From assembly GCA_947561715.1 (NCBI GenBank), contig OX387198.1, positions 5,580,001 through 5,644,000 on the forward strand: a stretch of DNA of 64,000 bases. Direction: 5' to 3'. Of this stretch, positions 17,019 through 64,000 are shown piece after piece. How positions within the stretch are numbered: the first letter of the stretch is position 1; each line of letters opens with the position of its first letter. The notes beneath the pieces are model-generated. The model did not search any database, was not told where the DNA came from, and was given only the letters and a program-made list of their open reading frames with translations. The DNA is from Ascidia mentula (Eukaryota; Chordata; Ascidiacea; Phlebobranchia; Ascidiidae). The translations under genes and the position numbers were made by a program.

Positions 17019-18919
17019 TTAATCCTTTTTATAAGGTGCGTTAAGATCGAAATATTCTGGCACCGGTTGTGGTATAGGCTGCTCGTAACTGTTTTCACTC
17101 GAAGTGGAACCTCCACTGCGGTGAGGTGCATTGGTTTCACTCGAATCGTTGTGAACGCGTAGTGCAGTCTGTCTTGTTTCATCGGTCGCCTCTGCAGGTT
17201 CCGATTTTGTTCGGTGGTCTGCATTTTCCTGTAGACGCGAGTTTATTCGCTCGTACACGTGGGTCACGTGACTGTCGTCAGCTTCCCCATTGGGGGGGAG
17301 GTCGGGGATCGCGTCGCCTCCTTCTTCGATATCGGTTGCGTTCGTGTCGCTGTCGAGTCGAGTGTGCGGAGTTGAGAAAACGTTTCCATATCTGTCGGTC
17401 AAAAGCATTTTTGTGGTAACAAACTTGATAAACTACCCTTTTCTGGTATATTGTGGGTCTGTCTATGAAAAAATGTAACGGTTTCTTTTAAACAGAAGCT
17501 TTTGCGAACTTTTCTTACTTCGCAAGATGTGAAATATCATGAAATTCCCAAAGTAATTGTTGACTGGTGGCAACCTAGCTGTGTTGGCAATACGAAATAG
17601 GATTACTCGGAAAAAGTTCGTACCTTCTCCATGTCTTGACAAACAAAGCAATGGCAATTATCGGCAAAAGAACGGCGATCACAATGAGGAACGAACGCAG
17701 CGACGTCCCGGCTGAAACAATATGGAAATATTATCAACTTTATACAGCGAAGACCAAAAAACAACACTAACTTGTTGTATCCATTATTACATCAGTTTTC
17801 AATGTGTAAATCACGTTGGCTGAGGAAAGGTCGCGATTCTCCACGTAATAAAACGGGCTTTTCCAACCGCTAGATGTCGCTACTGTCACGAATCCTACTC
17901 GGCCTTCATTGTTTTTGAATGACCTGCAATAATTGAACAATTGCTCATAAAGAGTGGTTGACGATCAGCGTCAATGCGATCTTTTTTCTATTCCCGCTAA
18001 ACGATACCTAACTGTCCACATTTAAACCCAAAAGATATGCAAGTTTAATAGATGTTTTAGGCCGTTGCCTTACATACGTGAGATAACCTATAGCGGGTCC
18101 GGGCTTGGCTTTGAGAAGATATTTTGTGTTGATGCAACGATACATCATCTTGTTCGGTGTTCCTTGTGTCGACGAAAGGTCACCGAGGGACCCGAATCCT
18201 TGCGGGCATTTCATCCTCCATACTTGCAGGAAGGTGTGGGAATAAAATACACGATAGAGTTGGACCGGAACGGCTATGTCCTCACCTTCCACGCTAAGAC
18301 ACAACACGTGAAATTGTATAGTTATGGTATAGTAGGCTATTGAGGGCGACGTTCGTGAGACAAACAAAAAATCAAAGAAAAAAACTTCACATTTATTCCT
18401 TTGGGTAAGGATTTTAAAAAGCGTCACTAAAATATAAAAATAAAACCCAATACTTTAATGTTTTGCAACTTAAAAAAGGTAACCCCTAAATGAATCCCTA
18501 AAAATAGGTTATTTGGACTGAAAAGTACGTGTCAAACTATTGCAGCATGTACTCACCCAGCGACTGTAGGCAATGCAATTTTCGGGTACAGATTGTTTTC
18601 GCCCAAATGTTGACCCACGATATAGTAATGAAATGACGTCACGGGTTGCCACACGGTAAAGTGTTCATTCACAGTTTTAGTCGCATTTGAAGCTGGCCTC
18701 ATTATAACTCGCAGCGTGCATTTCGCCACGTCGATAGCTTGCAAAGAAACAACTGTTGTCAATCCATACATTCCCATAAAAATGGTATCAATTAAAATAT
18801 CAATCGTGCTATTAACAACATACTCAGCAATCAATAGCGTTTGTACTCTGTCTAAATAGTTACTTGTTAAACTCACCTGTGCATAGAAGTACTATCAAAA
18901 TGTAGCTTTTAATTGTCAT
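17019..18919 (-). CDS. Array gene 1: type I membrane protein with Vps62-like ectodomain and tyrosine tail
   Basis: Exons in transcript order: 18877-18919, 18557-18737, 18078-18293, 17772-17923, 17624-17711, 17019-17391; 350 residues. The start ATG opens a signal peptide (MTIKSYILIVLLCTG). The third exon contains VWRMKCPQGFGSLGDLSS and ends in a Cys-paired segment; W-x-P/C-x-GF-x-SLG is the hallmark of Vps62/DUF946-type domains, a family assignment from memory. One helix (SFLIVIAVLLPIIAIALFV) is followed by a 125-residue acidic tail. That tail has HVYERI, ENSYEQPI, PEYFDL and NAPYKKD and ends at TAA. Introns are phase 1, 2, 2, 1, 2. It is a paralogue of gene 2 with the same exon plan. Ligand and function are unknown. 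Confidence 0.8.
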
Positions 18920-19532
18920 GTTTTCCAACTAAGGTGACTTCTTGATCTCTGATACGACATTTGTTATGAAGCAGCACCTACACTTGTATTTAAATGGTTG
19001 CTTCCGATACGGATATACGTCGGTACAAGCCCTTGTGACGTCGTGTAGTGCAAGTGCTCGCATTGTTTAGCCCAACATGCAACTGTACGAGCGCATGGGT
19101 TTGTTTTCTTAAATAGTTGCCTGTCATTTTTGTATGTCAACATTTTGTTAACATCAAAGCAAGGGTTTTTTCGAAAAAAAACTTTCAATCGAGCACGACT
19201 CATGACGTCACGATTTCAAATAGAAAACAACGAGTACAAACCCGATTTGATTTATTGCTTGCGAAATGACGCAGCGCAAAAAGTGGACGAAAGGTTGAGT
19301 CATCGTGTCTTACGTCAGTCTTTCACGAAAGATAATAAGCCCGCTTTGTTGCACCAAGCTTAGCGATAAAAAATAATTTGCTACCGAACGGAGAGTGGTG
19401 TACCGTTTCTTATTCAATTGATATGCACAGTCACTTATTGGTTTTGATCCACTGTACAGGAAAAGTAACATGTGTCAACAAATTGACAATCTTTTAACAT
19501 TACTAGCACTAAAAATGTTATTTTCATTGTTG
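18920..19532. other. Intergenic, 5' flank of gene 1
   Basis: No coding exon is supported. Two CRE-like sites occur, TGACGTCG near 19035 and TGACGTCA near 19203. The nearest feature on the right is the 3' end of gene 2. Confidence 0.4.
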
Positions 19533-22500
19533 TCACACAGGAGTGGGCGTTGCATAAATGTTCGCATTGTGGTAATTAGCGTATGACGGACTTTCCTGCG
19601 CCTCCGGAATGCGATAAGCTGTTACTTCAGTCGCAAAGGCGTAGTCGCAGTCGCCGCCGTCCACGCCCTGATACAAAATGTTTGCACGAATTTCGCGCTC
19701 GTCTTTTCTCTGCTCGTACAAGATATTCTCGCGCACTTCCGCTTCCGGGTTCCCATACAAGTGCAGATCGCTTCCCACGCTTCGGACCATCTCGTAATCA
19801 CTTTCGTTGTTCATTGTGGTCGTGTTGGTTGTGGTGTTGGTGGATGATGGAGCCACTTTCATGATCCTCTTCTTGTGCCTGTTATGGTTTGCGCAAATTT
19901 GTAATGTTTCAATCCTTATGTTGGCAAACAAAATCATTAAAATTTGCAGCAATACTTCTGGACATTGATCGATATTTTTTAGACTGCATACCGATGGCCA
20001 TTATTTCGACATGTTGGGTCTCTTCAGTACAGATTATAGATCGAAACAATAGTCATCTGTATGTAGCTGACAAGATTCAATTTATTGACTCAACGCTTAT
20101 TTATACTGATCAATATTGTTTGCTATATTTAATTCAATCTAGTAAAAGTTCGGAGTGTTCAGACTTATTATAATCAAGGCATCACGGCTTCAGCACAAAC
20201 ACGCGCGCTCATTCCTTAAACCAAATTCGTTACTGCTGTGGTTTTCCTTTAGCAGCAGAAGTACAATTAGCACATTTGCATTGGTGTATTTGGAGGCGCG
20301 GGGTGTGAATTGTCAGACTGTCGTCCTGCACATTAGAGCTGGGTTTGTTAACATATCAAAAGGTTGTATTTTCGCATATAACTATTGAACTATAAACAAC
20401 CAGGTAACTTCCACGGAGTATACCTGATAATACATGCGTTTACCTACAGTAAACTCTTACCAGATGCAGCATGCTAATACCATGAGAGAGATCAGAGTGG
20501 ATCCGACTAGTACTCCTACGGCCACCTTTACCCCCATGCTGGATACTGCAAGCATATAAAATATATTACTATAACGCAATGTTTGAAGATAAAAGGAAAT
20601 CGTGGGGCTTTGGTACCTGAAATTTCAACAACTTGCGCAGGCGTTGAGGTTGTGGGTGCAGTGGAACTTATTCCAGACGTGTTGGTTGGGATTATCTGTA
20701 TTCGTCGCTCCAAATCCGTTTTCGTCACAACTGAATCTACACACAGGCACAAGATATAATACTTGAATCGTCACAACTTAAGTATAATAAAAAACTTGAA
20801 GGCAAATTTTCACGGATATTTATGTTCTTTACTTTTTAAAGTTACCTTTTTTGATAGCGTATGCTTTGTCGTTGTTCGAATTCTTGATCACAAAGAATGG
20901 GCTTTGAAAACCTTGCGAAGAGTTTGCACTTCCAAATATTGCACGGCCATCACCGCGGCTGCGAAAGTAACAACTATATTAAACAGTGAAACACTTCATA
21001 TCATAAGGAAATGTAATTGCCAATTACGGTTATAGCACACAGCATACCCAGCAACAACAACTATTTCAAGCAAATTTATTCTAATTAATTCAATGAGAAA
21101 CTGATGGTTTCTACCATGCTGGAAAATCGATTTTGGGGTGTTTCCAATGAAACTAGCTGAAATTAACCCGGAGCCTGTTGCTTCATACAATGTATTATCA
21201 ATCTGCGGTTTCATTGCATGTGTATTGATATATTTATCTTTAACTTACTGGAGGAAGTTTGTGGGCGTTGCGACCACTGTAGCACTCCTGTGCACACATC
21301 TGTACTTTGACTTGTCCGGCTGTGGAGGTCCCCATACACTATTTCCATGTCTAGCACCTTTCGTCGCAATGGCGCCCAGACTCACGAAACCAGTTGGGCA
21401 GACCATGGGCCAAACTCCGACGGTATCAAGAACCATCAATGGTTTTAGGAAACCGAGGGGTGGAGCCAGACTGCCGTCAACGGATCTGCACAAATATGGG
21501 TTGCTTGTAAGCATTTCGATAGGACTTATTACACTAAACCAATGCCTTAACATTAGCTTTACTTAGTAATTCCCAGGATCAGGTTCTACAAGTCACTTTC
21601 GAAGCAACAAGCCTAAGACCAAGAACACAGCATACAGTTGTCAAGTGGGAGATTTATACAGTTTACAACGATGAATTTGGATAGATAGAAAAGCAGTGCT
21701 TGGCGGCCAGAGAATGGCGTTTTCAATGCACACCAATATATATATATGTATATATACATATAACTGTTTTTTGTCAAACCTGGCAACGTAAAGTTCAGTG
21801 GACGCGGACGGTGGGTTGCCAGTGTTATGAGCGAACTGCCCCAGCACATACGAATCGTTGTACGGAGGATCCGGTTCCCATATGGAAGCACTGCTTGTCA
21901 GAATCACGTTTACGGTTTTATGCGTTTTTATGATCTCCACCTCCTTGCCGAGACACAGCCCTGCTGAAAAAAGTTACAGTGAGATTTTTCTGCTTTGTGG
22001 AGAAAGTGCTGGATTTGTTTATTGTTTGACAACACGAATCTGGAATTTTTGTTTTTTGTCAGCAATGTGTCCAAAAAACCCAAATTATGGATTTTACGAT
22101 GTATTTCAATAGGATTTTACGATGTATTTCTGGCTTGTCGGCAATAATTCAACAGACTCATGAAAGGTTTAGTACCATATATCCGGCCGTTTCCTTATTT
22201 GGAGACGGAAATAACGTATTTATGACGTATTGCAAAGCTCTTCGTTTGACACATGTGGCCTTTTTTAGAACTTTTTGCAACATTTCCAATCAATACGTGA
22301 AGTTTTAACGAGTGGATGATAGCGCAGAGGTGCCGATTCCAGGTAGTACACGACATATGCACAAATAACATGCGGGATCAACATGTGCATAATGTGCACA
22401 ACGTACGAAAATCACCCTATCATGTACATGTGGCGGTTTCGCACGAACTCAGAACTCCGTTCGTTGAAACTCGGTTCTCAAAACCGTGTTTGTTCGCATT

Positions 22501-22668
22501 GTGCAATATTTTGTTTTCTGAGAAACTCAATTCAATTATTGCACCCTTTTGGCCCTGAACATTTAAAGTTCCACTACATCCTGACACACGAAATGCTCGG
22601 ACGAAAAAGAGTTAGCAAAATTCACCTGAAATTGTAGACAGAAACAGCACAGACAACATAACGTCCAT
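19533..22668 (-). CDS. Array gene 2: type I membrane protein with Vps62-like ectodomain and NILY-rich tail
   Basis: Exons: 22626-22668, 21780-21963, 21249-21485, 20846-20958, 20617-20736, 20461-20545, 19533-19878; 375 residues. The signal peptide is MDVMLSVLFLSTISG. In exon 3, GVWPMVCPTGFVSLGAIA aligns with gene 1 exactly 25 residues after the splice acceptor, which also fixes the acceptor at 21486. Exon 4 has GFQSPFFVIKN, matching GWKSPFYYVEN in gene 1. A Thr-rich stalk exon that gene 1 lacks precedes the helix (VAVGVLVGSTLISLMVLACC). The tail has DYEMV, LYGNP, ENILYEQ, ANILYQG, TAYRIP, SYANYHN and IYATP: two copies of the NILY motif and several YxN sites for SH2 adaptors. The role is inferred to be a surface signalling receptor. 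Confidence 0.8.
21739..21765. repeat. AT microsatellite in an intron of gene 2
   Basis: This is an alternating TA run with a central TGTATATATACATA in the intron just 3' of the exon ending at 21780. It is a simple repeat and may be polymorphic. Confidence 0.7.
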
Positions 22669-24073: not shown

Positions 24074-26983
24074 TCACGTGTCCGCGCTCCTCTTACGAAC
24101 TTCCTTATATTTGTCGTCAACCTTCTTAAACCGGTTCAAAGCTCCACTGTCCTCGTTGACAGTTCCGATAATTTCTCCATACGGGGAATGCCCCGTCGGG
24201 TTTTCGGTAACAGCGACGAGGTCGTTGTTATTGGGTTCGATTAGACCGAATTGAGGGCTTCCTTTGTTCTCACTGCTGCTACATGCTATTTCATCAGGGG
24301 GGACTATGAGACTGTATGCAACCGCGTTTGGGTCCATTTGCTTGATCGCCACTATTTCGCTGTAGGCGCCAACCGGCTGCTGGGGTTGTGCCGCTTTAAC
24401 GGGTAACGGTGGAGCCGCGTCTTCCGCTTTATCGTAAGTCCCTTTACGCTTTGGAATGTCGGACGCGACGTCATAAAGGAAGAAGTTCTTCCTTCCAAAA
24501 GAAGTCGTCGCAGCCGCCTCGTGGCTCGTATCTTCCAGTCCTATCTCACAATACTGTCTATCCCCCGTTGCTGGGATTGGTTGTAGGTAGGGTCCTTCCT
24601 GAGTGTTTGGTGACTTTTTTCTCTTCTTGTTTCCGTCTAGGTCTATCACGTCGTACGGGGATGTTGTCAGGACGACGTTGCTGTAGTTGGACGAGATGTT
24701 GTCGTCACGCAAGGACACGTGGACTGCATATGGGTTGATGTCAGTGTTCGAGTTCGAACGTTTGCGATTTCTGCAAAAGTATGGCAGCTTTAGGAATTGG
24801 GAATGTGTTAGAAAAAATACTTGAATAGCGAACGTACACAAAATTTTGTGGAACTTTTAGTCATGCTATTGATGCCACATGCAATGTGTAAGGAAGATGT
24901 GTGGCCCTATATATTGCGGTAATAGTGCCAAAGTTCATGCAACAAATACTCTATACTGAAGGTGCGCCTAAAATTACTTTAAATTCTTTTATTCGGACAA
25001 AAAGTGTACATGCCCTTGATCACGTTTCAAGTCGCTCATCCGCAACATAAAACCTTTTCATACCTTCGACGTCGATACACAAGGTTGATCACACTTGCTG
25101 TGGCAATGGCCGTCAACGATAGAGCTATCAGGATGATCCAAACGAGCGATCCGGTCAACAGTGTCGGACCATCGGCTGTGGTAGAAGTGGTTGTTGTTGT
25201 CGTGGTCGGTTTATCGCTTGTTGCCGCTGCTGCCGCGCTGCGCGTTGCTGTAAGCAAGGACGTACTCGCCGTTTGCGCTGTGGAAAGTACGCTTTGAGAC
25301 GCAGTTAACGCTAGCGTCGCCGCGTGGCTGCTGTTTTGCATTTTACTATTGCCGCTGGTGGTCGCTGCTGCGCTGCCGCTACTGCTACTGCTGCTGCTCA
25401 GCTCTGCGCTTGCGGAAACCATGCTGCCTCGCGCATCCTCTGTTGTCGAGGATGTAACGCTTGTTTCTGACTGGCTACTGGTTGTTATGGTTGTGGTGGC
25501 GCTAGTTTCTTGCTTACCATCATCTCTGGTTGTTGCTTCTGGATTGATCAAAACCGAAACCGGCACCAGTTTGTACGTGATGTTGGCCTTAAAATGTTCC
25601 ACCAGGATCGTGATGTTGATGGTCGGGGGCCAAGATTTGGCAGGGAGCCAAGGCACGTGACACAAGCCGAGTTCGTTTGCGTCAAACAGCGTGTAATTGG
25701 TGTGGGGAACCACCCTCGGCGAATGATAGATCTTGCACATGTTCATTTTTGATGCACAAACCTTTTCGCCTGCAAAGACAAAAAACATGTGCTTGTAGGT
25801 TCTTCAAGTTCATGGATAATTGCAAATAACTAATGGTACTTTAAACGAACACATTTAGTGTTTGAAAGGTCTGCACATCATATTAACCAGCAAGTTTAGA
25901 GCAATAGCTTTCCTCTTTATAACCATATTTACAATGTAAATTGTTACTCTATAGATATAAATACCAGAGCCCTTGAGAGGAACAAAATGTGTTTTTTGGG
26001 GATTACATAACATTGCGGGGAGGACCAAGCTTACGTGGTAAAAATCCATTTGTTTCAGAGCAAACAACGACAATCACTGTCCTCTATTGGTATCCATTAT
26101 ACTTGTATGGGATCTAGTGCACTAAATTGGCTGCACTTCTGTCCCGTAGGGCTCGAAGCGTGTTGACAAAAACCGCATGCTTACCGTCGGGAAATGTGGC
26201 GTATTCGGACGAAGCCTCAGTGCAATGTGGAATATTTTGATTCGAAGCAATGTCGGCTGTTACCATCAGCACGAATGTGGCGTCCGTACCGTGCGTGGAA
26301 ATCGGCCAAGTGCAATTGATTTGGGTTTGGACCAACAAGTTACCCTCGTATTCCGCGAAGTGAGTTGCTGGACATTGTGTGTACTGGATCGCCGCTGTAC
26401 GGAGCAATTTTAATTAATGATTTGACACAACTTAAAAAAAAACATTTTTGGATTGAAATAGTGTTGCTTTAAGACTCACAAATCTATGAATAAAGTGAAA
26501 GGGTAACAATTACACCAAAGCTCTCTTGAAGATCATTTTCATTTATTTCGTGGTTTCAAAACATCACCCATCGGTAATAGTCTGATGTGTTGTCATACAA
26601 GGGGGTACAGACGAGTTTTGTCATCAATCAAGCCTTCAAGTTGGGTTCAGGCGGTGACGGACGACCGTGCGATTCTGCGAACCTTGGCTCACCCTTATCT
26701 TACCCGGGATATACACGAGTCCGGAAACGGGCATGTGTTGAGCCAGTCAGTGAGGGTGTCCAGTATATCCAAACAACCCGTGGCTTCCGGCCATGCCCAC
26801 TGACCCAAGACACGTACGCTGCGCGTTTCCGCACTATTTGTCTCGGATATGAAACTATATGGGATACCAGTAGTGTTTTTTAAACCGGCAAACCTGCAGG
26901 GTTAATATTTGATATGGATTACCTTGTGACGTTCCCACACACAGCGCAATGAGTGACGTCAGAATGATTCCGCTGCCGTTCAT
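24074..26983 (-). CDS. Array gene 3: large mucin-stalk receptor with scaffold-like tyrosine tail
   Basis: Exons: 26923-26983, 26185-26394, 25064-25769, 24074-24770; 557 residues, the longest of the array. The signal peptide is MNGSGIILTSLIALCVGTSQ. The second exon and the start of the third form a divergent CUB-like region (NCTWPIS in the first half, VEHFKANITYKLVPV at the end). The rest of the 706-base third exon encodes a Ser/Ala/Thr mucin stalk and the helix LVWIILIALSLTAIATASVI, with stop-transfer arginines. The 232-residue tail holds about twelve tyrosines: PYAVHV, NYSNVV, PYDVIDL, PYLQPI, QYCEIGL, LYDVASD, TYDKAED, AYSEIVAI, AYSLIV, PYGEII and KYKEV, plus PPLPVK, an SH3-type proline motif. 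That density is typical of membrane scaffolds that recruit several SH2/SH3 proteins. It has no DNxLY motif, unlike most neighbours. The function is inferred. Confidence 0.8.
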
Positions 26984-28533: not shown

Positions 28534-29660
28534 TTATGTGTTTGTTTGCTTGGGGTCGGTCGCCAAGCTGTACAAAAGTTCTCCAGCTAAAGGTTCGGTT
28601 GTAACGCCCGGATTGTTGTATATTTCGTTAACAACTGTTTGTGCCTCCGTATTTCCATCCTCAACCGCTTCGTAAACGTCCGTGGAAAGAAAATCCGCTG
28701 GTTCTTGTTTGATATTTTCATGCTCGGCATATTCATTATCTCGAACTTGGTGTCTTGCTATGATGTCCGCCTTTGCCCGCTCAAGTCTAACCGTCCTCCT
28801 TCTGGCAATCACAGTTTTTCGGTATGTAAACAACATACTGACATAAAACAACAACTAAACTTACCTGTAAATAAGAAATAAAAATACGGCTGCCGCTATT
28901 AGAAGCACTACCCCAAGCACGGTCAGGCCAATGTATATGCCGTTGTCGGGTGCAAAATCGGTAACCCAAAGTTCCCGATTGAAGCCGGTGATTGTTTGGT
29001 TTTTGATCAAAACCGAGGTGATAATTGTTGGCATAATTGCAGTGGATTCCGATTTAGAATTCCCAACATATGTGATTGGTTTTGTGCTGGTTGATTTCTT
29101 TTCCGTTATGATCGTCTGTGTTTTCGTCACTAGTGTGGTGGTCTCCTTGGCAGCTGCATTACACAAGCTTAGCTTATAATTAATATGGACGGTGAACTAT
29201 GTAACGAAATATACCTGGCATGTGCGCAAAAACAGTAACTACACTTTTTCCGCCAGTGAAATCATTGGTAAATTTTATGTTTTCCCAATCTGGGGGTTCG
29301 ATCACAAGACAGTCTTCATTTTCGTATGGAACGTGATGGTCAGCATCTGGGTACAGTTTAAAACACTCCGGTAATATGTTGGTGTTGTCTCCATAAAATG
29401 TCAACTGTCCGTTCGTTACGGTCACTTTTATGTAGCTATATCCTGCACCGTTGAAGTGTATGCACCTTTTGTTTTCAAGCCTCACTTCTCCAGCTAATAT
29501 CAGTTTATGACATCCTGAAATAGGCAAAAAAAAGTGTGATTGAATTTGCCTTTATGAATAACTTCAAGTTTATAGTGTTTAAGAATTTCAATTACTTACC
29601 TGTAGAAACGCCTTGGCCCAAGAAGCAGCCTAATAAAACCACAAGAATGTACACATCCAT
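28534..29660 (-). CDS. Array gene 4: short-intron receptor with single-exon ectodomain
   Basis: Exons: 29600-29660, 29215-29514, 28865-29153, 28534-28801; 305 residues. The signal peptide (MDVYILVVLLGCFLG) is followed by one 300-base ectodomain exon with four or five cysteines (GCHKLIL, KRCIHF, PECFKLY, EDCLVIE). It has beta-rich alternation and could be a remote CUB relative, but I do not recognise the fold. The acceptor before the stalk exon is taken after ATGCAG because only that one keeps phase 1. The helix is IGLTVLGVVLLIAAAVFLFL. The tail has NEYAEHENI, DVYEAV, VVNEIYNNP and ELLYSLA. VVNEIYNNP closely matches VINELYNNP in gene 5, linking the two tails although the ectodomains differ. 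Confidence 0.8.
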
Positions 29661-36150: not shown

Positions 36151-36261
36151 GTATGGGACCTTACAGGTCGAAACAGTGCGTGTACAGACCCTGTCTGCAG
36201 CACGCCAATATTATGGCTTTTTTGCACATATGTTTCTGTTTGGTTTGTGTAATTTCGTCGG

Positions 36262-50402: not shown

Positions 50403-52399
50403 TCACATGTGATAGATAATATTGTCCCGCATTTCTCGTTCGCCTCCAACTCCCGTGTAAAGCTCATTGTCCACCATAACGGGTCCTTCATCTACGCCAA
50501 CCTGACTCAAATCGGCGCAGTTCTGACCGGTTGGATCCGGAATTTGTGCGTCGTTCCCGCTTACGTAAATGCAGTTTTCCACCATTTCACGTTCGTTACT
50601 TGTTCCATGGGCGCTGACGAAATCGGTATAATCCGATGCTGCAGTGTATATTGCATTTGGATTTTCAGATTCGTATATGTTCTTGTTTCTGTCGATGTGT
50701 GTTGCCGGAGGTGTTTTTCCTTTGTGTTTTCTACAAAGCAAAGTGCAACAGTTGTATCTTCAACGTTGGACACAACAAATAGACTTCTTTAAAGCACGCA
50801 GTTAAGCATGCCTAAAAACACGTTCAAATCAACTGCTAAAAGCAGTGGAAAGGGTATTTGCTGTGCGCTGAATGCACGAAAAATGGGCAATGGAACGTCC
50901 TTACACACGGTCTAATGTTTACCGTTAACGATTGTGACGCAGTTTTAGAAAACCTATTATAAGTCAACTAACATTCGCACAGAAACGAAGCGAGGACGTA
51001 ATATCCTGCCTTAGAATAGAACCTTTCGTTAGCCCGAACCAACCTTTTGTACAAGTAAACTCCCGCCAGTAGTAGTATGAGTAACAGCATGCCCGCTGCA
51101 ACTAAACCCGCTACCAAACCAACGTTAGCCGCTGCGCCGATAGCTCCATGCTCCGTTACTATCAAGAAAATGATTTGACCACAGTCACATATTATTAAAC
51201 TTTCTTAACTATGTTCATGTACTTGCGGTAGTCGGGGTTGATTGTTGTGTATCATTGTAAAGGGTTGAATAAACAGAGACTGTTTCCGTTATGGGAGGTA
51301 TGGTTGTGACGTTGCTGTAGCCAGTGGAAGTGATGACGTAATTCGCCGTTTTGCTTTGCGTTGCGATTGCGGTCGTTCCGGCTAATTCTGATCAACATGC
51401 ATAAAAACTGTTAGCATCCAAAACTTTTGTGAATATTTGAATGATAATACTGATGATGCCGTATAGGCGAAATATATATATTGTGTAAACCAGTATCTTG
51501 GATGATTATGTGATAATCTGGGTCAGTCCTAGTAATCACTTTTAGTGAATATGTTGGGACTTACCTGATGTAGCAAGCGATGAAGTTTGTTGTATTGGCA
51601 GAACTGTGGTTGATGGCACCTCTATTAAGCAAATGTTTGTGAATACAGTTGCGTGGCCGTTATATTAATTTATTCATAACCGCCAACGATTAAATATTTC
51701 GTCACTGCTTTCCAAACTTACCTCTGTCGCAGCTGTATACAATAAAGTTCATCTGAAAATTCTTTCCTTTTGTCTTTGAAGGCCTTTACGTGTATAAAAA
51801 AAGAGGGATTTATGCAGAAATAAAATATATAAGTGTGTACAGTTGAACTTTGGTATTTGCCTCTGACAGTTCCAGTGAAACAATTTACTCACTTTAATTA
51901 TATACTCCAAGCTTACCTGTACGCAACTGGAATACTGTTCCAGTAGGTTGAATATATTTGGACATTATTTCCGCAAATGTTGGCAATTGGATGATCGCAC
52001 GGTGTCAATTCAGCATGGGTGTCCATATATATGATGCAATCCTTCTGTTTCGGTTCTCTTCCCACTGTGAAACGAGTTAAGTTAATCTGCATCTTTTGAC
52101 GAGTTCATATATTGCTACTAACAGACAGGTATGACGACATTGTCATCCTTCGAAGACTTTGTAATTTCATATAACATCATTCTTGTGCCATTGTACGGCA
52201 TCAGGTTCCACGTGCATTCATCTTGGCATTCTCCAGGGGAGGCGCTGATTTGCCCACTGCCTGTGATCTCCACTTGAGAATGTTTCGAACAGAATTCGAC
52301 TGCGAATTAAGGATATATGGACTGCATGTACTCGACTGCCAAAACAAAATACTCACCATAACACCAAAAAAGAAATTTTCTGCGACATTGGCAAGACAT
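50403..52399 (-). CDS. Array gene 13: CUB-like receptor of the 13/14 pair
   Basis: Exons: 52357-52399, 52123-52299, 51917-52064, 51722-51783, 51565-51621, 51223-51381, 51044-51158, 50403-50730; 362 residues. The start is the ATG at 52399 (MSCQCRRKFLFWCYG), not the longer frame from 52410, because only the former gives phase 1 and matches gene 14. The CUB-like domain has GSGQISASPGECQDECTWNL, CDHPIANICGN and FQMNFIVYSCD. It has an extra 57-base stalk exon (51565-51621) absent from gene 14. The helix is VGLVAGLVAAGMLLLILLLA. The tail has AIYTAAS, MVENCIYVSG, MVDNELYTGV and RDNIIYHM at the end. The last sixty residues are almost identical to gene 14, more so than the ectodomain. Confidence 0.85.
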
Positions 52400-52660: not shown

Positions 52661-54500
52661 TCACATGTGATAGATAATATTATCCCGCATTTCACGTTCG
52701 CCTCCAACTCCCGTGTAAAGCTCATTGTCCACCATAACGGGTCCTTCTTCCACGCCAACTTGACTTGAATCGGCGCAGTTCTGACCGGTTGGATCCGGAA
52801 TTTGGGCCTCGCTCCCTCTTACGTATATGCGGTTGTCGACCATTTCACGTTCGTTACTTGTTCTATGAGCGACCTCGGAATCAGAATGATCCAGTACTGC
52901 TGTATAAGTTACATTGGGGTCGTGGATATCATTGGAAGATCCGTATAGATTGTCGTTTCTCTCTGTGTAATTGACAGGAGTCGTCTCTCCACCTCCACTG
53001 CGTTTTCTGCATAACAACGTTCAACAGTAGTATAGCCTAAACGCCTTTTTGCCAATTTCACAAATTTACATCGACTAACAAGTCGCACGTGCCCCAATGC
53101 AACATAATACCATTTGTTCAAGAGTGACGTTAATATACAGTGTGCGCTGATTTGACATGGAAACGAGCAATAAACATCCTAGCAAGATTTTAAAGTGTGT
53201 TGTTAACCCCATAAAGTTGTATGCTTTCTGCAATCTATCATAAGTTTGCTTCCATTTGCAAGGAAACAACGGGCGGTAACTTAATATCGTGCCTGAAAAT
53301 ACCTTTTGTTCCTGTACAAGGAAATTCCTGCCAGTAAAAGCACGAATAAAAGAACGCACGCTGCAACCAAACCCGCTACCAGACCCACGTTAACAACCAT
53401 TCCGATAGCACCTTGCTCCGTTGTGTTGGAAACTGGATAAATAACAAAATACGATTTCACCCACAGTTACTCTCTTCCAGTCTCCAAATAATTACTTGTA
53501 ACCTACTTGCGGTAAACGGAGACGGTTGCTGTGTATGGGTATCGTTGTAAATGGTTGAATAATCCGGGACAGTTTCCGTTGTGACGTATTCCGTTTTACT
53601 TTGAATTGTGGTAACAGTCGTGCTAGCTGAAAAACAATATTCATATTACAAGAAATCTTTGTATGGGGCATTAGTGGCTGTGTCTCTAAAAAACATATAT
53701 TTGTGAATATAAATAGGTTGCCGATATAACTTAGTCATAAATGCCAACAAACAAATATTTTGTCATGCACTAAATCGGAAACGTACGTCTGTCGCAGCTG
53801 TATACGGTAAAGTTCATTTTAAAATTCGTCCCAGTTGCCATGGAAGGCCTGCATATATAATAAAAAAGTAACTTTTATGATACGTGTAAACAAAAAAGGC
53901 AAATGGTGCAAAGAAAAAGATATTTAGATAAATCATTGTACCTGTATACTACGCTGGACCTATATTGAAATGTTATTTTTCCAGAGAGCAATTTGATTTT
54001 AGCAATTACCTTACCTGTACGTTATCGGAATACTGTTCCAATCAGTTGGATATGTCTGAACGTTATTTCCACAAATGTTTGCATTTGGATGATCGCACGG
54101 TGTTAAATTAGCGAAGTTGTCCATATATATAACGCAATCATCCTTTTTCAGTTCTTCTTCCACTGCGAAAGGATTTAAGTTAACTTCATTTTGCTTGTAT
54201 AAAGTTTATATTTGGACACTAACAGCCAGGTATGATAACTGTGTCGTCGTTTGAAGACTTTGTAAATCCATATAACATTAGTCTTGTGCCATTGTAAGGT
54301 GACAAAGTCCATGTGCATTCATCTTGGCAGTCTCCTGGGGAGGCCCTGATTTGACCACTCTCTGTGATTTGTACATTAGAATGTTTGGAACAGAACTTAA
54401 CTGCGTAATAAAAGTAAATGTACGTTATGTGCTCGGTTGCACAAACCAAATACTTACCAATACACCAAAAAAACAATTTGCTGTGGCATTCACAAGCCAT
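52661..54500 (-). CDS. Array gene 14: CUB-like receptor of the 13/14 pair
   Basis: Exons: 54458-54500, 54224-54400, 54015-54162, 53787-53848, 53507-53626, 53303-53432, 52661-53006; 341 residues. The first exon is MACECHSKLFFWCIG. The CUB-like domain has ESGQIRASPGDCQDECTWTL, CDHPNANICGN and FKMNFTVYSCD. Exon 2 uses the donor GTTAGT as in gene 13. The helix is VGLVAGLVAACVLLFVLLLA. The tail has NVTYTAVL, which fits the ITIM pattern V-x-Y-x-x-V, then DNLYGS, MVDNRIYVRG, MVDNELYTGV and RDNIIYHM at the end. The corresponding first site in gene 13 is AIYTAAS and does not fit an ITIM, so the two paralogues may signal differently. Confidence 0.85.
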
Positions 54501-54831: not shown

Positions 54832-56355
54832 TCAAGGCGTAACGTTAACACCTAACAACAGGTGTTTCACCATTTCTCGTTTCCCTTCCCACGAATCTGG
54901 GATGTTTCTCTCTTGTTCCAGCTCTTCCACACTCCCGGATTGTGTGGAATAACACGTGTCATCATGGGCAGTTACAGGTTGCGCACATCTGTGGTCTCCC
55001 ACACCAGTTCCGTCGCCGTGTGTAATGGCAAAAACCCCGGCTTGATCTCGTATCGCAGTGCTAATATTAACGCCTGGTGGTGCGACCTTCTTTTCTATCA
55101 TGGTGCTGCTGTCCTGAATTTTGCGACGTTGTGTATGGATTTCTCGTTTCCTTATCACAGTATAATTAAGGTTCTTTTGCTTAAACCATTGTGACGTGCG
55201 GCTTACCTGTATAAGCTTGCTATGATCAGAAGTAACAGAAAGAGAGCAAAGCACCCTGCACCTCCACCAATAGCCGCTCTAAAAACCATGGAATTCTCCT
55301 TTGGTGTTCCCAATCGTCGTATTTTCGTTAGACTCGACGTTATTAAAAGTGACGAAGTTTTTGGCTTTGTTGTGGTGAACTTGGCCTTGGTGCTGGTAGG
55401 CATCACAGTAAAAGGAATTAGATCTGAAATTATTATAAAAATCCCCTTGCAAGTGCGAATTCACACACATGATAACTTCACCAACCTTTTATTGGAGCAG
55501 CAAGTGTTGTAGGTAATGGCAAAGAAGTGGTACTTGATGCGGCTGCAAGCTCTATACAGAATTGCTTCAGTTTCTGGCTTTCGAAGTGCATGCATATTTT
55601 AGTTGATTTACAAACATTTTTAATTGCGCCACTTTCAATTGGAACTTCCATGCAATATTTATTACGCTCACCTGTCAAATTCATTATGGCTAAACTCAAG
55701 CTGAATCCTCGTTGTTCCGTAATACTGTTGGAATAAAAGTGCATCTTGTATGGTTGCTTGTTGGATGTTAAAACCCTGATATGTTGACAGCTTAATTGTT
55801 GTGCGATCTCTAAAATCTCCTTTGAGGCGAGGGTCACATTTCCAAACACGTAACACCGTTTCTCATCCGTGAATCCGCATAGATAAAGTGATGCGTGGCT
55901 TCCTGTGGATTTGTAGGTTTGCACACCGTGACGTCAACGTGCACACTAATTCCAACGCTTACCATCCAGTAATGTCAAGTGATCGAAGCAGTTTGACACG
56001 TCGCCTTCACAGTAAACATTGCTACACGTGCCTTGCTTCTGTATCTCGAGAAAATCCAGTGCGATAACTGCGACCTCATCCCTAACCGATATCCGTGGTA
56101 GGTTCCAAGTACATCCCTGCAGTGGCGGATACATGCGATCACCTCCGAAATTTGGGGATTTTATTATTCCTGTTCTTCCCTGTATATTCCCACCCGCCGT
56201 ACTGCACACTAAGCGGGTTCTTTGCGCTGTTGCTGAATTTAGTGACTTTGATTAAGTCTTACATAGGCCTTTTATTCAAGCCTCCACTTACCAACCATCA
56301 AGCAATGCAACACCAACATGAGCGCCAGATTTCGTTGCCTGATTCGCGATATCAT
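54832..56355 (-). CDS. Array gene 15: CUB receptor with a decayed tyrosine tail
   Basis: Exons: 56292-56355, 55963-56208, 55672-55902, 55486-55542, 55207-55423, 54832-55150; 377 residues (four more if an in-frame upstream ATG at 56367 is used). The CUB domain is clear: GIIKSPNFGGD, CTWNLPRI, VAVIALDFLEIQK, CFDHLTLLDG and QPYKMHFYSNS. The stalk exon and helix (AAIGGGAGCFALFLLLLIIA) follow. The helix and tail exon lengths (217, 319) equal those of gene 17. The tail has a single tyrosine (CYSTQS) and ends MVKHLLLGVNVTP, where related tails have MVDN-x-[LI]-Y; the key Asn and Tyr are lost. Either it no longer signals through tyrosine or it acts as a decoy. Confidence 0.85.
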
Positions 56356-56549
56356 TTCTATGAGCATCAAAACTGTGCTTCGTATGACAAGCTATAGAAT
56401 GATTATTTCTAGCAACACGAGTACAACTGTCGGACGACGACTGACAACTCACAAAATTAAACACATGTTCCTACACAGAGCAGACAGGTCAAAACTATTG
56501 TAATTCGTTTGTAACCCTAAGCGTTTTCTCTCTAATTTTTGTGTGGCTC

Positions 56550-58151
56550 TCAAATGTAAACTAACTTCGACCAGTCATAATTAGAGGAACGATAGTGGCG
56601 TTCGCTTTCCTCTTTCTCCTGCCAGAAAAACGATATCACGCAAAGTTTTGAAAGTCTGCTGAAAATTTCTTTCTTTATTAAATTTCCACATGCCACGCCT
56701 TCGGACATAAATGTACATGTACTACGATATTCAAAGATTCCAATAAAGTTTGTAAATATTTTTTTCCTTTTCGTCACTCGTCCAAACACCACATTTGATA
56801 AGAGGTCACTTTTAAGTGCGCGAACGGATGCGGAAACGTTTTACCTGTTGGCGTTTCCTCCTGCAAACAGTTTGTAGTTGTAACAAGTGTGACGTATTAA
56901 ACAAACCGAACGCTCACCTGATTAAAAGCAGAGCAGCAATAATAAGGACAACCGAAATGAATGCTGCAATTACACCTCCGATTATTGCGGCATTGTCTGC
57001 TTGTACTGACGGCGCGTTGCTAGGACTTAAGTTTTTGGTGGACGAGGTCGATGTTGTCATGTGCGAAAATAAACCTAAAGCAACGTTATGTAAATTGATT
57101 GTTATTCTTATATTTATAAAAACGGTGTACTTGACGTCGTCACGGTTGAGGTGACAAGTTTTCCTGTCGTGCCAGACTGAGAAGAAGTCGTGGGAATCAC
57201 AGTACTTGTTGTTGGAACTACTGTCGTTGGCCCTTTGTATAAAACAAAACTAAGTAAATACTCAGATTAGGTCACGACAATTGCTTTTTTTACCATACCC
57301 ATAATGTCAGTTATTTCGTACAGCAAGCTGAACCCGCGCTGATTGATGATTTCGTCAGAGTAGAACAAAATCTGGTATGGCATCTTTCCGCTCCTGAGCG
57401 TCGTGAAATCCCCGCATCCATACTTGGTCTTCATATTTCTCTCCTGTTCCATCCCGATTGTGTTGTTCGTTAAGAAGAAGCACTTTTTGCTACTTGTCAA
57501 TCCGCAAAGGTAGACTTCCGAAGGACTTTCTGTAATTTGATATCACAGAGCTTTTATTAGGTTGTATAATTGACAACCTTTTTTCGCCGTGCTAACAATC
57601 AATATCTAGAAGGCAATTTCGACCACTATGCAAAACCGTGCGTAGTTTTCAGCCAAGAGTGCTAAAAATAGTTGAGCAATATGGTCGAAACTAAACGGTA
57701 ACAATTAAATCGCTGCATACAGCTCAAGCTTATTTGTAATAGACTAGGATTTTGCAACTAACCGTTTAGCAGCGTAAGGTGGTCGTAACAGAGGGAAGCA
57801 TTGCCTTCGCAATACGACCCTGCACAATGTTTAATTTTCTGCAGCTCGAGAAAGTCGATGACAACCACTATAAACTGTTCGGTTGAAATTTGTGGCAGAT
57901 ACCACGTGCACGCTTGTTGGGACGGGTATGTTTGGTTATTCCCGTAATTTGGTGTCGTTATGTTTCCCTTCGTGTTCCTTATAGTTCCGAAAGTTGTGTT
58001 GCATGACAAGTCGTTGCACCTGGCCTTGCCTAAAACGTAGAATTAGTTATGCTAAAGTAGCTCGCATACCAGCAGATTGTACACACTTACCGATCAAACA
58101 GCAAAACACGAATATATAGACGATCCGGAGATACGGCTTCACTGTGATCAT
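56550..58151 (-). CDS. Array gene 16: CUB receptor with short tail and a 16-base micro-exon
   Basis: Exons: 58091-58151, 57763-58029, 57299-57529, 57131-57232, 56918-57074, 56845-56860, 56550-56618; 300 residues. The signal peptide is MITVKPYLRIVYIFVFCCLI. The CUB domain has GNITTPNYGNNQTYPSQQAC, VVVIDFLELQK, CYDHLTLLNG and QILFYSDE. The helix is IIGGVIAAFISVVLIIAALL. A 16-base exon (RRKRQQ) moves the reading phase from 2 to 0, and a last 69-base exon gives a tail of only 22 residues with HYRSSNYDWSKLVYI. If the micro-exon is not spliced onward, the frame ends after ten more residues. No ITIM or DNxLY motif is left. Confidence 0.75.
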
Positions 58152-58873: not shown

Positions 58874-58879
58874 TTTATT
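58874..58879 (-). terminator. Polyadenylation signal of gene 17
   Basis: AATAAA on the minus strand begins three bases after the gene 17 stop codon, so the 3' untranslated region must be only a few dozen bases. Confidence 0.6.
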
Positions 58880-58881
58880 TT

Positions 58882-60513
58882 TCATTTCGGTGGTTTATGG
58901 ACCACGCTGTACGTTACGTCATCTTGCGGCCCATTTTCAACGTCAACTTCCATAGAGTTGTATAACTCGTTGTCGACGATCTTCTTTTCTCCTTTGTTTA
59001 CAACTGCGTAGACTACGTTGATTTGTGACGTAGTGTCGGATGTATTTTGGCGTGCTGGACCCTCAGCTACTGGAAAATTTTCCGTGTCTCCATGATTCTC
59101 TGGGTTGTTTTTGAAAGCCACCGTTATGGGTGAACCGTGTGTGTTGGCTGTCGTCTCATTAAATGGCTTGCGAAGGTGCTGTCGCTTCAGATATTTTCGC
59201 CTGTAAGAAGGTGGACTCGACGTTGGATGTTTTTAACTTTCGCTGGCGCAATTCATACCTCACACAAACCGCAAACAGGACAAGCAGAAAGATTCCAGCA
59301 ATTGCTCCGATTACACCACCGATCCAATCAGAGTTTGTTTCCTCTGTATTTGTGGTCACGTCTGTTGAGGTGATAGGGGTTACGTTTGTTGAAGTGAAAA
59401 AGTTTATGCCTGCTGCGGTGATAGGGATTATGTATGTTGCGGTGCTAGGTACACCTGATGTATTGAGGGTTAGAGCTGTAAAATACATACGATGCAACGT
59501 TATTTTATGACGTAACGGTTTTCCCCTCTGTCCAGTGTGTAAAATTTACAGGCGTTTCTGCATGCCGCTGCTAACACGAGCAAGAATGATTGCTGATTCT
59601 GTCAGGAATATTGCTAGTGGCAAGTGTTCTTTCAGAATCATTTTCTTCGCCGTTTCGGACGCAAGTTAACAGTTATATACTGACCAGGAGAGTGTGTAGT
59701 GATGGCTGTCGTTCTTTGGGTTGAAGCCGATGTGGTGGATATCAACGCTATAATGTACAATTATATTGTTATCATTAAACCAAGCATCGTTTCACTGCAC
59801 AGTATCAGTATCGATGTACCTGTTATGTGATAATGCAGGTCAAAACCCCGATAATTGATGTTGTCGTCTGAATAAAAATGCAGTCTGTGCGGCTGTTTAG
59901 TGGAATGTAGAACATTTTTGATGTTGCATGAAAAGTTCTGCATCAAATCATCCGCTGTTTCTTTTAGGACTGTATTGTTTCCAATGACATAACAGAGTTT
60001 ACTGCTTGTGTTTCCACATATGTGAAGCTCTGTAGAATTACCTACAAATTTTATGAAAAAACATAAAATTCGCCACCATTACATTGTCTTTTACCTGGCA
60101 GTAAGGTTAGATGGTCGACACAAACCGTGGCATTTCCTTCGCACAAAGTTTTCTTGCACGATTCGGGTTTTTGTATCTCCAGAAAACTAGTCACAATTAC
60201 CACAATCTGGTCTAAATTGATTGTTGGTAACTCCCATATACATGATTGGTTTGGGGGATAGACTTTATTGCTTCCGTAGTTCGGGGAAGTTATTCTACCA
60301 AACGCGTCTGTAAGTTTTCCACTTTGTGTTGCGCTGCATGTTAAATTCACTCCTTTGACTTCCACTGTAAACAATAGTTTCATTAAATTAGAAAACATAA
60401 GTTATCGAGAAGTCACAACATATTTACTTTGTTCACTTACCCATAGCAAAACTTGACAATACTAACATCGTTAACATTTTTCTTGACTGAAACACTGGCG
60501 TTAAACAATGCAT
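58882..60513 (-). CDS. Array gene 17: CUB receptor with two canonical ITIMs
   Basis: Exons: 60441-60513, 60095-60364, 59820-60041, 59685-59747, 59259-59475, 58882-59200; 387 residues. The start at 60513 gives a plausible signal peptide (hydrophobic MLTMLVLSSFAMG after a basic stretch); the internal ATG at 60477 is an alternative. The CUB domain is classical: GRITSPNYGSNKVYPPNQSC, IWELPTI, VVIVTSFLEIQK, CVDHLTLLPG and HRLHFYSDD with RGFDLHY. Thr-rich stalk and the helix WIGGVIGAIAGIFLLVLFAV follow. The tail has VVYAVV and VTYSVV, both matching the ITIM pattern V-x-Y-x-x-V, with IVDNELYNSM between them. Two ITIMs are the classic layout for recruiting SHP-type phosphatases in vertebrate inhibitory receptors; here this is inference. 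Confidence 0.85.
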
Positions 60514-61278: not shown

Positions 61279-63124
61279 TTACTTGGGATTCTCGTCGCCA
61301 CTGTCGGTCGCCCAAGAGCTCGCATAACTCACAGCGTCAATTTCGATGCGGGTGTACAACTCGTTTGTTTCTTGTTTCTTCGGCTTGCGGACTTGGGCAT
61401 ACTGGGGGATCTTTTTTTGCGTTGGCGCGGGCGATTCAGCAGTTGCGTTTTCGGAAAGCTTGGTGTCCGTATAGTTGGTCGTGGAAACGACTTGTCGTAA
61501 CGGATTTTCCTGTTTCTGATTCTGGCGTCTCTTCCTAAAAGTATCAGGCGATCATGGGCATCAAAACATATACTTTGATGTTCAAATAATCAACATGATT
61601 ACATTCACATTGTGGCTAACTACATACGTATTCTTGTGTCACAGTAAATTTCTCAACACTTTGTATATCAGGCAAAAGTTTCAACCACAGTTATGCTCAT
61701 CATCACTGAAGCCTGCTTACTATGTCAAGAATCTTGGCTTTGGTTTTCTTATTAAGAGTATAGTGCTTGCTGGTGCACTGTCATTAAGAGTAGTCAGCTC
61801 CAAACTCTTTGCTCCTAATATGGTTTATCTTAGTTGCTTTGAATGAGGTTTATAGGTTGATATTTTTCAACATTGGATTTGTGTTGAGCATTGGAATGTA
61901 ATAGCTATGACTAAGTGTGATATCTCTTCATATTCACAAACCTGCATAGAAGGATGACAACAAGGATGGTGGCAAACCAAACTATTGCTCCTATTGCAAC
62001 TCCCAATCCTATGACAGTGGTTTTGACGCCTAAGGCAGCTTTTGATGTTGAATATGACGTTGTTTCCAAAGTGGTCAAATTCATCGAGACTTTCGTCGTG
62101 GCTGTTGTGACTTCCGTGGAGTTTGGTTGTTCTGTAGCTAAGAAAACAAGAATATGTTTACGCGCTTTTGTTCAGACAGCATTTTATATACAGAGCATAT
62201 TTTTTGTCACCTGCTGTTGAGATTTGTTGTAGTTGCGAATTGGTGGAAGTTCTTGCATTTTCTGAATACGTCAGCCAATCTATCCAAAATCCTGAAGAAA
62301 GAAAAACACGTTGTTTGTGAAGTTCAAACATTACGGTTATTCATAAAGAAGCTTACCAGTCGTATTAATTATCCAATAGTCAAACAAAAACCTTCCACTG
62401 GCGTTTTGAGAAAGAAAAAAGTAAAAATGATCGTTCACTGATTGATTCTTTGAAATGTGGAAAGTTTCGCTGCAGTTATACTTGTCTTTCCAATACCCAT
62501 GAAATGAAATTTTGGTTGGGAAATTGTTTGTATAAATGTAACACTTGGTATTGTGGCTTGTTCCACAAAGATACTGTTGTTTTTGTCCATATCCTGCATT
62601 TTGTAAATGCAATTAAAAACATAAGAAAATATTTTATTAATTTGTACCTCCAGGTAGTGTCAGCATATCTACGCAGTTGCAGTGCTTGCTGCTTCCGTTG
62701 CAAAACGCAACATCGTCCGACACCTTCTTTTCCATTCGTAAATATCTAACTGCAATAACCATGACCTCGTTGGCGAAGTTGACGTTGAATTTAAACGTGC
62801 AAAAAATGGTTGAATTATGTTCGCTGCCGTCAAAATTCGGCGACATTATCCTCCCTGACTTGTAAGTTGTTGTATTTGGGTCACAGCAAAACCCTGCAAC
62901 AAAGATGTTAAACAATTAAATTAATAAAAAACTTAAACTGGGGTTTAACATCGTTAGGCTTACATTTAGCCAATGTTATTCCCACTAAGGATCATTATAA
63001 AAACGCTTCGCCCGCAATAAACGTACATTCTGCGGGCTGGGGCATTTTGTCAATCAAGACAATTGAACTTACCGTAACATACGATGGATGCCATGACTGT
63101 CGTAAGTAAGTGAATCCTTGCCAT
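61279..63124 (-). CDS. Array gene 18: CUB-like receptor with ITAM-like tail, parent-type of gene 7
   Basis: Exons: 63073-63124, 62648-62893, 62357-62593, 62211-62291, 61942-62137, 61279-61534; 355 residues. The signal peptide is MARIHLLTTVMASIVCYG. The CUB-like domain has GRIMSPNFDGSEHNSTIFC, ANEVMVIAVRYLRMEKK and YCYIYTNNF-type strands. The helix is VIGLGVAIGAIVWFATILVV. The tail has NYTDTKL, then PQYAQV and ELYTRI eleven residues apart: YxxV-x11-YxxI, very close to an ITAM (YxxL/I-x6-12-YxxL/I). VSYASSW lies near the end. Its first four exons are duplicated almost unchanged in gene 7, about 26 kb away. Confidence 0.85.
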
Positions 63125-63907: not shown

Positions 63908-63908
63908 T
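63903..63908 (-). terminator. Polyadenylation signal of gene 19
   Basis: AATAAA on the minus strand overlaps the TAA stop codon of gene 19. Confidence 0.5.
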
Positions 63909-64000
63909 TAATCTAAGTTCATATACACGTGCTTCTGTAGCTGCATCGGTTTCTCGTACGGATTTTCTTGACTTGTTTCCGCATTCGTGTAAGATTGTGC
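63908..64000 (-). CDS. Array gene 19: last exon of a further receptor, cut by the window edge
   Basis: The minus strand gives thirty codons ending at TAA (63908-63910) with AQSYTNAE, ENPYEKPMQ and HVYMNLD. ENPYEKP resembles ENSYEQP in the gene 1 tail. YTNA and YMNL are both pY-x-N sites for Grb2-type SH2 domains; YMNL also resembles the CD28-type YMNM site. Only the tail is visible, so the receptor type is inferred from strand, position and motif content. Confidence 0.6.
   Translation of the reverse strand, partial: AQSYTNAETSQENPYEKPMQLQKHVYMNLD

Follow-up and report, generated by a model that had tools for sequence, protein, structure and literature searches.

A one-strand array of predicted tyrosine-tailed receptor loci with mostly CUB-derived ectodomains, probably nested in a nesprin intron of Ascidia mentula

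Vertebrate natural killer cells, like Botryllus and Hydractinia in allorecognition, depend on clustered receptors with tyrosine-bearing tails, and the known ones use immunoglobulin (Ig) domains. KIR, LILR and fish NITR form tight tandem clusters whose single-pass products vary in the ectodomain and end in tyrosine tails. The nearest tunicate system is that of the Botryllus fuhc locus, whose FF (fester) and FcoR (fester co-receptor) genes are presented in PMC12065747 as large, clustered and diverse families of type I receptors, the FcoR members having tyrosine tails, some with immunoreceptor tyrosine-based inhibitory motifs (ITIMs) and the core motif YxxI/L/V. The ectodomains of both consist of Ig (Ig-V) and sushi domains, FcoR tails carry ITIMs, the core motif or hemITAMs (half of an immunoreceptor tyrosine-based activation motif, ITAM), and the genes are mostly arranged as FF/FcoR pairs. 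Here we describe an array of predicted receptor loci on chromosome 2 of the ascidian Ascidia mentula that looks like an undescribed recognition-receptor system. The window, the whole stretch of 64,000 nucleotides that was analysed, corresponds to C2:5,580,001-5,644,000, and genome searches covered the 195.8 Mb assembly in 79 contigs, C1 and C2 being chromosomes 1 and 2 of the same genome.

The array of related receptor loci is confirmed, and it extends beyond the window. A total of 37 loci was predicted on the minus strand over 97 kb (17.0-114.3 kb in window coordinates), of which 18 (G1-G18) lie inside the window and 19 (R1-R18 and R13b) beyond its right edge. Predictions came from an exon-chain model trained on long open frames of the window, extended to the flanks and retrained; final models were assembled by hand, and 12 of them (R13, R13b, R15, R16, R17, G6, G7, G10, G13, G14, G16 and G17) were adjusted with the locus plan in mind. 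In that plan, a signal exon and ectodomain exons are followed by a Thr-rich stalk and a single hydrophobic helix, and the last exon, a separate one, encodes the tyrosine-rich tail, as the sequence-only reading had proposed, and gaps between the window loci measure 0.26-1.55 kb in the models, in line with its 0.2-1.5 kb. The same reading had counted nineteen loci, all on the minus strand, at 17019..64000; strand and loci stand, but 18 were modelled in the window, one of them (G12) as signal and ectodomain only, and the array continues past the window edge to ~114.3 kb. A resolved tail ending in a stop codon was found in 30 of the 37 models (16 of 18 in the window), the seven without one being G3, G12, R3, R5, R12, R15 and R18; G7 and G17 have open 5' ends, and R11 is nearly without an ectodomain. 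On the plus strand inside the array, the same procedure gave no gene at the same score except a nesprin model extending to 18,859. An Rfam search at the gathering threshold returned no match.

Intron phase is highly regular across these models, with 128 phase 1, 36 phase 2 and no phase 0 introns among 164, and the intron between helix and tail is phase 2 in all 29 resolved-tail models that have one (R11 has no such intron). This bias is in the data and does not come from hand adjustment, because an automatic pass made before any phase prior also shows it (176 introns: 119 phase 1, 43 phase 2 and 14 phase 0). Two introns, in G7 and G10, are of the GC-AG type. By our reading of the models, the ectodomain CUB is interrupted in most loci by an intron near the position between [LMF]P[DNG] and G.

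The tails share short motifs, as the sequence-only reading had claimed, and these stand far above the level of shuffled sequences. Among the 30 resolved tails, the most over-represented motif was N-x-[ILV]-Y, with 36 sites in 21 tails compared to a mean of 2.0 and a maximum of 7 in 500 shuffles; in a less redundant set of 24 tails (R2, R14, R16, R17, G6 and G9 removed), 25 sites were found against 1.7 expected. Within the window, 13 of 16 tails carry it, counting G16, whose site abuts the helix and may not qualify. Taking the commonest residue at each position gives the fuller motif E-[RK]-[EK]-[MIV]-[VRK]-[DA]-N-x-[LIV]-Y, with ExEMVxNx[LIV]Y as the fullest form. This is not a canonical ITIM, and since proline follows the asparagine only in the NPIY of R13 and R14 (37 sites of N-x-[LIVM]-Y), it is not an NPxY motif either. 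Also in the 30 tails, YxxI/L/V occurs at 52 sites in 26 tails (25.9 expected), ITIM-like motifs at 17 sites in 11 tails, where 6.0 were expected (14 and 4.7, respectively, in the less redundant set), YxN at 22 sites (12.5 expected) and YxxI/L/V pairs at ITAM spacing 8 times in 7 tails (1.1 expected). A second tail type, represented by R6, R13b, G18 and their relatives, has YExP followed near the end by Y[VILF][DE][ILF], and R7 has the second part without YExP.

These tails bear on whether the locus resembles KIR, LILR and NITR in pairing inhibitory receptors, which carry ITIMs, with activating receptors, which have a charged helix and couple to adaptors, as the sequence-only reading had suggested. 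Tandem receptors with variable tails, the enrichment of ITIM-like and ITAM-spaced sites, and G3 and R18, which may be short-tailed, would fit such a locus. None of the 30 resolved-tail models has K, R, D, E or H in its best 19-residue helix window (R15, a model without a resolved tail, has one E there), no hemITAM was found in the 30 tails, the leading motif is N-x-[LIV]-Y and no Ig family reached the Pfam cut-off in the 30 loci scanned; for these reasons KIR-like pairing is not supported, and we consider it very unlikely. The enriched ITIM-like, YxxI/L/V and ITAM-spaced sites nevertheless leave room for some signalling of this sort.

Used as a probe, the tail motif led to further receptor loci. 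The back-translated DNA pattern ExEMxxNx[LIVMF]Y matched the genome exactly at 22 places and the reversed control at 1. Of the 22 there were 6 in the nesprin-locus array that supplied the pattern, 2 on C1 (22.896 and 22.901 Mb), 8 on C2 at 5.311-5.363 Mb and 6 scattered, two of the last with an in-frame stop, so that receptor places account for 16 of 22, 10 of which lie outside the design array. A tighter pattern allowing one mismatch, drawn after the first matches had been seen, gave 14 matches, none of which fell outside the three receptor places, and 0 in the control. A second array lies at C2:5.295-5.387 Mb, 0.2 Mb away, and a satellite at C1:22.894-22.902 Mb; six small pieces (L045-L050) were read from these two places. 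One of these, L047, has the complete receptor plan, with introns of phase 1-1-1-2 and EREMVDNQIY in its tail, and the other five are partial; ectodomains from four of the six match R1/R4/R5 (E 2.3e-16) and do not match classical CUBs (E 0.15). A genome search with the chromosome 1 protein from L045 gave 61 matches, among them 32 separate ectodomain-exon places on C2 5.295-5.387 Mb, a row count and not a gene count, all on the minus strand and some with stops. A search with the R15 ectodomain had placed 24 of 25 matches in the nesprin-locus array; the idea of a family confined to that array was dropped because the motif pattern and the L045 search exposed the second array and the satellite. Adjoining the chromosome 1 receptors are open frames that resemble a C-type lectin by eye (L045 from 2599 and L046 from 2594).

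The ectodomains were scanned with Pfam in 30 of the 37 loci, some as ectodomain only or in part (R3, R11, R13b, R17, R18, G12 and G14 were left out). CUB lies above the curated cut-off in eight (G2, G3, G4, G11, R6, R9, R10 and R15) and below it in R7, R13 and R14, G6 matches another CUB model below its cut-off, and the remaining scanned loci have no CUB above cut-off. In profile-profile comparison, classical CUBs of the same genome match the CUB-positive set (E 2e-12), which matches the G1 type (2.5e-24) and G11/R6/R7 (1.2e-17); the G11/R6/R7 profile matches R1/R4/R5 (5e-9), G8/G9 (1.3e-7), R2 (1e-6), G16 (3.3e-6) and R8 (7.4e-5, probability 62), and a combined profile reaches G5/G6 (3.9e-5, probability 70). 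Column-shuffled controls for the G11/R6/R7 query against five targets gave a best E of 0.05. Classical CUBs compared directly with G8/G9, R2, R8, G16 and G5/G6 gave nothing significant, so the CUB link of these groups rests on the chain. Similarity to the CUB set was not seen for G7, G10, G13/G14, R12, G15 or G17/G18; of these, G13, G14 and R12 make up a second ectodomain type (1.1e-6), and G7, G10 and G15 were matched to no type. Many ectodomains, including several formerly unrecognised, form one CUB-derived continuum. The sequence-only reading had distinguished CUB, CUB-like, Vps62-like and unrecognised kinds; among the window loci CUB is confirmed for G2, G3, G4 and G11 and a Vps62-like ectodomain is indirectly supported for G17/G18, but "several kinds" was overstated, because many fall into this continuum.

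The ectodomain of G17/G18 has no direct Pfam match to the Vps62 family (PF06101). It matches repeats on contig C69 by profile-profile comparison (E 1.1e-13, against 0.09 at best in six shuffled controls). One of these repeats in turn matches PF06101 (E 7.9e-4, 24.0 bits, cut-off 22.1), and weak genome matches of G18 fall in the same cluster, which indirectly supports a Vps62-like assignment. The cluster itself, at C69:5.366-5.406 Mb (L040-L043), consists of large tandem genes in which Vps62-like domains recur, in some of them along with Ser/Gly-rich repeats, and is a possible source of the G17/G18 ectodomain. Elsewhere, several CUB domains are found together in long single open frames (673-914 residues) at C69:1.314-1.329 Mb and C1:4.684 and 4.837 Mb. 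Neither an Ig family nor a sushi domain lies above the Pfam cut-off in the 30 loci scanned, the weak Ig-like matches below it being FN3_IL27B_N in R1 (E 0.07) and Transglut_C in R8 (E 0.05). Matches to RIFIN, Stevor, holin and similar models, below cut-off and on helix or low-complexity stretches, were set aside, as was a single-sequence structure model of G10 (predicted local distance difference test 34.7), which was uninformative.

A profile of 12 ectodomains, CUB-positive members included, finds CUB domains of solved structure, with cubilin as the best match (E 4.4e-26). This relative speaks for endocytic, scavenger or engulfment receptors of the cubilin and NPxY-receptor kind, in which the CUB would bind cargo, soluble or particulate, and N-x-[LIV]-Y would recruit clathrin or GULP-like PTB adaptors, and tails that combine NPxY with YxxL or ITAM sites are documented for CED-1/Draper/MEGF10 in PMC8092387. 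Set against it are a motif without the proline, the many tails that also carry ITIM-like or YxN sites unneeded for endocytosis, and an ectodomain diversity beyond that of familiar cargo receptors, and we hold this explanation to be doubtful, if a serious candidate.

Comparison of duplicates suggests that the loci are coding sequence under purifying selection, because the ratio of nonsynonymous to synonymous substitution rates (dN/dS) is below 1 in most ectodomains and in all tails compared. Values were 0.18-0.68 for ectodomain exons in 11 of 12 pairs (R2/R3, 1.15), 0.22-0.58 for tails in 7 of 7 pairs and looser, 0.35-1.73, for stalk and helix exons (8 comparisons). Such values also speak against strong diversifying selection on the ectodomains taken as a whole. 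The possibility that the array consists mostly of non-functional remnants or gene-prediction artefacts could draw on the seven models without a resolved tail and the truncated G12, but it is scarcely credible given the strand asymmetry, the regular intron phases, these ratios and a motif that predicted further loci.

Ectodomains and tails are combined in different ways among the loci. The tail exons of R1 and R2 are 89% identical and their ectodomains unmatched at E 1e-3; R12 and R13b have stalks 79% and helices 90% identical and differ in the ectodomain, which is of G13 type in R12 and CUB in R13b; the R13b CUB exon is 79-84% identical to those of G2, R15 and R17, with a tail of another type; and the tail of G15 is related to that of G14 (45%), with ectodomains that are unmatched. 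Synonymous divergence (dS) also differs by exon, being 0.14 in the ectodomain and 1.66 in the tail of G13/G14 (Fisher p 1e-9) and, in the opposite direction, 1.16 and 0.20 in R13/R14 (Fisher p 1e-5). Because like tails and helices join unlike ectodomains and dS differs by exon, exon shuffling is indicated; recombination in same-phase introns explains the module swaps, and the intron-phase plan accounts for exchange of an ectodomain without loss of the tail.

The block G1-G2-G3 (56.9-63.1 kb) is repeated as R16-R17-R18 (64.2-70.4 kb) with dS of 0.04-0.17, uneven between exons, and may represent a tandem duplication or a retained haplotype. Ascidians have self/non-self loci, the Botryllus FF/FcoR families being placed by PMC12065747 in haplotypes of variable gene content, and the array has a comparable gene number, recent block duplication and truncated copies. 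On these grounds it could serve allorecognition or gamete self-incompatibility, and eggs, sperm or blood cells would then carry the receptors. We judge this unlikely: Ascidia mentula is described as solitary (PMC11109543), so that colony fusion does not arise, the scanned loci have no Ig or sushi match above cut-off and dN/dS is mostly below 1.

On balance, we lean towards a germline-diversified, modular family of single-pass receptors in which shuffled, mostly CUB-derived ectodomains would be carried on phosphotyrosine tails. Each locus would provide a variable set of ligand-binding ectodomain exons (mostly CUB-derived, some Vps62-like or other), followed by a stalk of mucin-like character, a helix free of charge and a tail with tyrosines, and the sequence evidence suggests that diversity arises by tandem duplication and by recombination in phase-1 and phase-2 introns, through which ectodomain and tail may be swapped without a break of frame. 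For function, we infer ligand recognition, tyrosine phosphorylation and adaptor docking: the receptor would be clustered by a ligand that a microbe, a damaged cell or a cell of another individual presents, Src-family kinases would phosphorylate the tail tyrosines, and N-x-[LIV]-Y sites, which resemble the N-x-x-Y docking sites of PTB proteins, would dock adaptors with PTB or SH2 domains, with extra YxxI/L/V sites adding partners that inhibit or activate. Such signalling would lead to uptake, to adhesion or to the control of effectors, and haemocytes or the surface epithelium are the probable place.

Several observations weigh against this modular receptor family. Plain YxxI/L/V sites outnumber N-x-[LIV]-Y; PTB docking is a guess, because the proline of NPxY is missing and a hydrophobic residue stands at -6 about as often as at -5; several ectodomain groups reach classical CUBs through intermediates alone; the ectodomains have no general excess of amino-acid change, which is weak for an arms race; and hand assembly turned the automatic predictions into the final models, 12 with later adjustment. 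More tentatively, and as something possible more than probable, the loci may belong to a new chordate recognition system of about 70 candidates in at least three places, with one array antisense in nesprin. Its members would be defined by the conserved phosphotyrosine docking motif ExEMVxNx[LIV]Y and not by the ectodomain, with CUB-derived, Vps62-like and other modules shuffled onto that motif, and in tunicates the system would parallel, on a CUB basis, the allo- or pathogen recognition that relies on Ig domains. If so, such recognition systems can be rebuilt on another scaffold, the CUB domain, with a similar family size. The tail motif is a concrete candidate for adaptor binding, in a family that visibly shuffles binding and signalling exons.

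The sequence-only reading had placed the array beside nesprin, and the relationship now appears closer, with the array inside a nesprin intron. Spectrin-type exons on the plus strand run up to 16,387 and are found again from ~128.5 kb (window coordinates). To the left of the window, also on the plus strand, two predicted pieces joined by hand match CH domains (E 8.9e-33), and KASH has a sole genome match, at C2:5,768,498 (+), window coordinate 188,498. The exon chain continues across the gap in frame (phase 0), with a weak spectrin-like domain over the joint (E 0.006, below cut-off). No plus-strand gene was predicted at the score threshold between 18.9 and 128.5 kb. Minus-strand membrane genes occupy 116.4-126.1 kb; one that was tested has fibronectin type II domains, a Thr-rich stalk and one helix, and two look alike by eye. 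All 37 loci and the fibronectin type II membrane genes probably lie antisense in one ~112 kb nesprin intron, as judged from the exon chain, and two separate genes in place of one nesprin spanning the gap would be less probable, if still conceivable. Such a position links an array that changes fast to a gene that is large and conserved, a landmark for other ascidians. The features of the window are collected in Table 1. Between G12, G13 and G14, a repeat is present in two copies (35959-36210 and 33091-33375) whose open frames are 82% identical over 50 residues.

Table 1 Predicted receptor loci and nesprin exons in the window (window coordinates)
Feature	Position	Strand	Predicted structure and tail	Supporting comparison
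Nesprin (SYNE) spectrin-repeat exons	1325..16387	+	last exon before proposed giant intron 16193-16387	Pfam SYNE1 spectrin E 1.8e-9
G18	17019..18919	-	Vps62-like ectodomain; tail YEQPIPQPVPEYFDLN	
G17	19533..22554	-	Vps62-like ectodomain; tail EVRENILY, EIRANILY; 5' end open	
G16	24074..26983	-	CUB-derived; Ser/Thr stalk very long; four ITIM-like motifs in the 232-aa tail exon	hhalign to G11/R6/R7 E 3.3e-6
G15	28534..29660	-	one-exon ectodomain; tail TVVNEIYNNPG	tail 45% identical to G14, 38 residues, E 3.6e-6
G14	30456..32151	-	G13 paralogue with different tail VINELYNNP, EKEMVVNILY	vs G13 dS: ectodomain 0.14, tail 1.66
G13	33598..35104	-	second ectodomain type (with G14, R12); tail VTYVNV repeats	G13/G14 to R12 hhalign E 1.1e-6
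G12	36491..37366	-	truncated G1 copy: signal and ectodomain; no helix or tail found	ectodomain exons 96%/90% identical to G1
G11	38075..40075	-	CUB receptor; tail VVDNRLY, MVKNILY	Pfam CUB 22.3 bits, cut-off 21.4
G10	40656..42407	-	one-exon ectodomain; GC-AG intron before tail; tail MVDNVLYN, MKDNILYRM	
G9	42712..45072	-	G8 paralogue	genome search with G9 matches G8 and G9 only
G8	46135..47857	-	CUB-derived; Thr-rich stalk; tail MVYNEVYKSM, EIRDNVLYNM	G8/G9 to G11/R6/R7 hhalign E 1.3e-7
G7	48578..49964	-	ectodomain without Pfam match; tail MVDNCIY, ANVLYNV; one GC-AG intron; 5' end open	
G6	50403..52399	-	G5 paralogue; tail motifs as G5	G5/G6 to mid profile hhalign E 3.9e-5, probability 70
G5	52661..54500	-	diverged CUB-like; tail NVTYTAV, EREMVDNRIY, MVDNELYTGV, EREMRDNIIYHM	
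G4	54832..56367	-	CUB receptor; one-tyrosine tail without N-x-[LIV]-Y	Pfam CUB 21.9 bits, cut-off 21.4
G3	56918..58151	-	CUB receptor; tail exon(s) short or missing in model	Pfam CUB E 5.4e-7
G2	58882..60477	-	CUB receptor; tail VVYAVV, VDNELYNSM, VTYSVV	Pfam CUB E 4.9e-9
G1	61279..63124	-	signal, two-exon CUB-derived ectodomain, stalk/helix exon; tail NELYTRI, YAQV	ectodomain to CUB-positive set hhalign E 2.5e-24; R16, outside the window, is a recent duplicate

The sequence-only reading had inferred a tunicate, which holds. Within the literature and protein searches run, its claim of an undescribed CUB-based clustered receptor family held as well: no earlier description of a CUB-based clustered family of tyrosine-tailed receptors was found in the open-licence literature, among the matches listed. 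G2 and G15 had no relative at E 0.001 in a large protein collection, which says little because G2, with its clear CUB, was also unmatched, and the collection probably holds no close animals. Compared to Botryllus FF/FcoR, the Ascidia mentula array has CUB-derived or Vps62-like ectodomains and N-x-[LIV]-Y tails, no pairing was seen in it, and it is apparently nested in nesprin. KIR, LILR and NITR differ in their Ig domains and charged-helix partners, which were not found in the array (30 loci scanned for Ig, 30 resolved-tail models for a charged helix). The ectodomains of Hydractinia Alr proteins are Ig-like. Alr belongs to a different phylum and is set against the array by description alone, as invertebrate receptors reported with ITIM and ITAM motifs (cited in PMC12065747). 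CED-1, Draper and MEGF10 have ectodomains of EMI/EGF type and true NPxY sites and are not known to form arrays. They share with the array a modular, single-pass build and, going by the description in PMC8092387, tails that combine sites of N-x-x-Y type with YxxL or ITAM sites. Cubilin, neuropilin and C1s/MASP share the CUB domains that match the ectodomain profile, and in comparison to these proteins the array loci have a single, strongly diverged CUB, mostly split by an intron and fused to a tyrosine tail.

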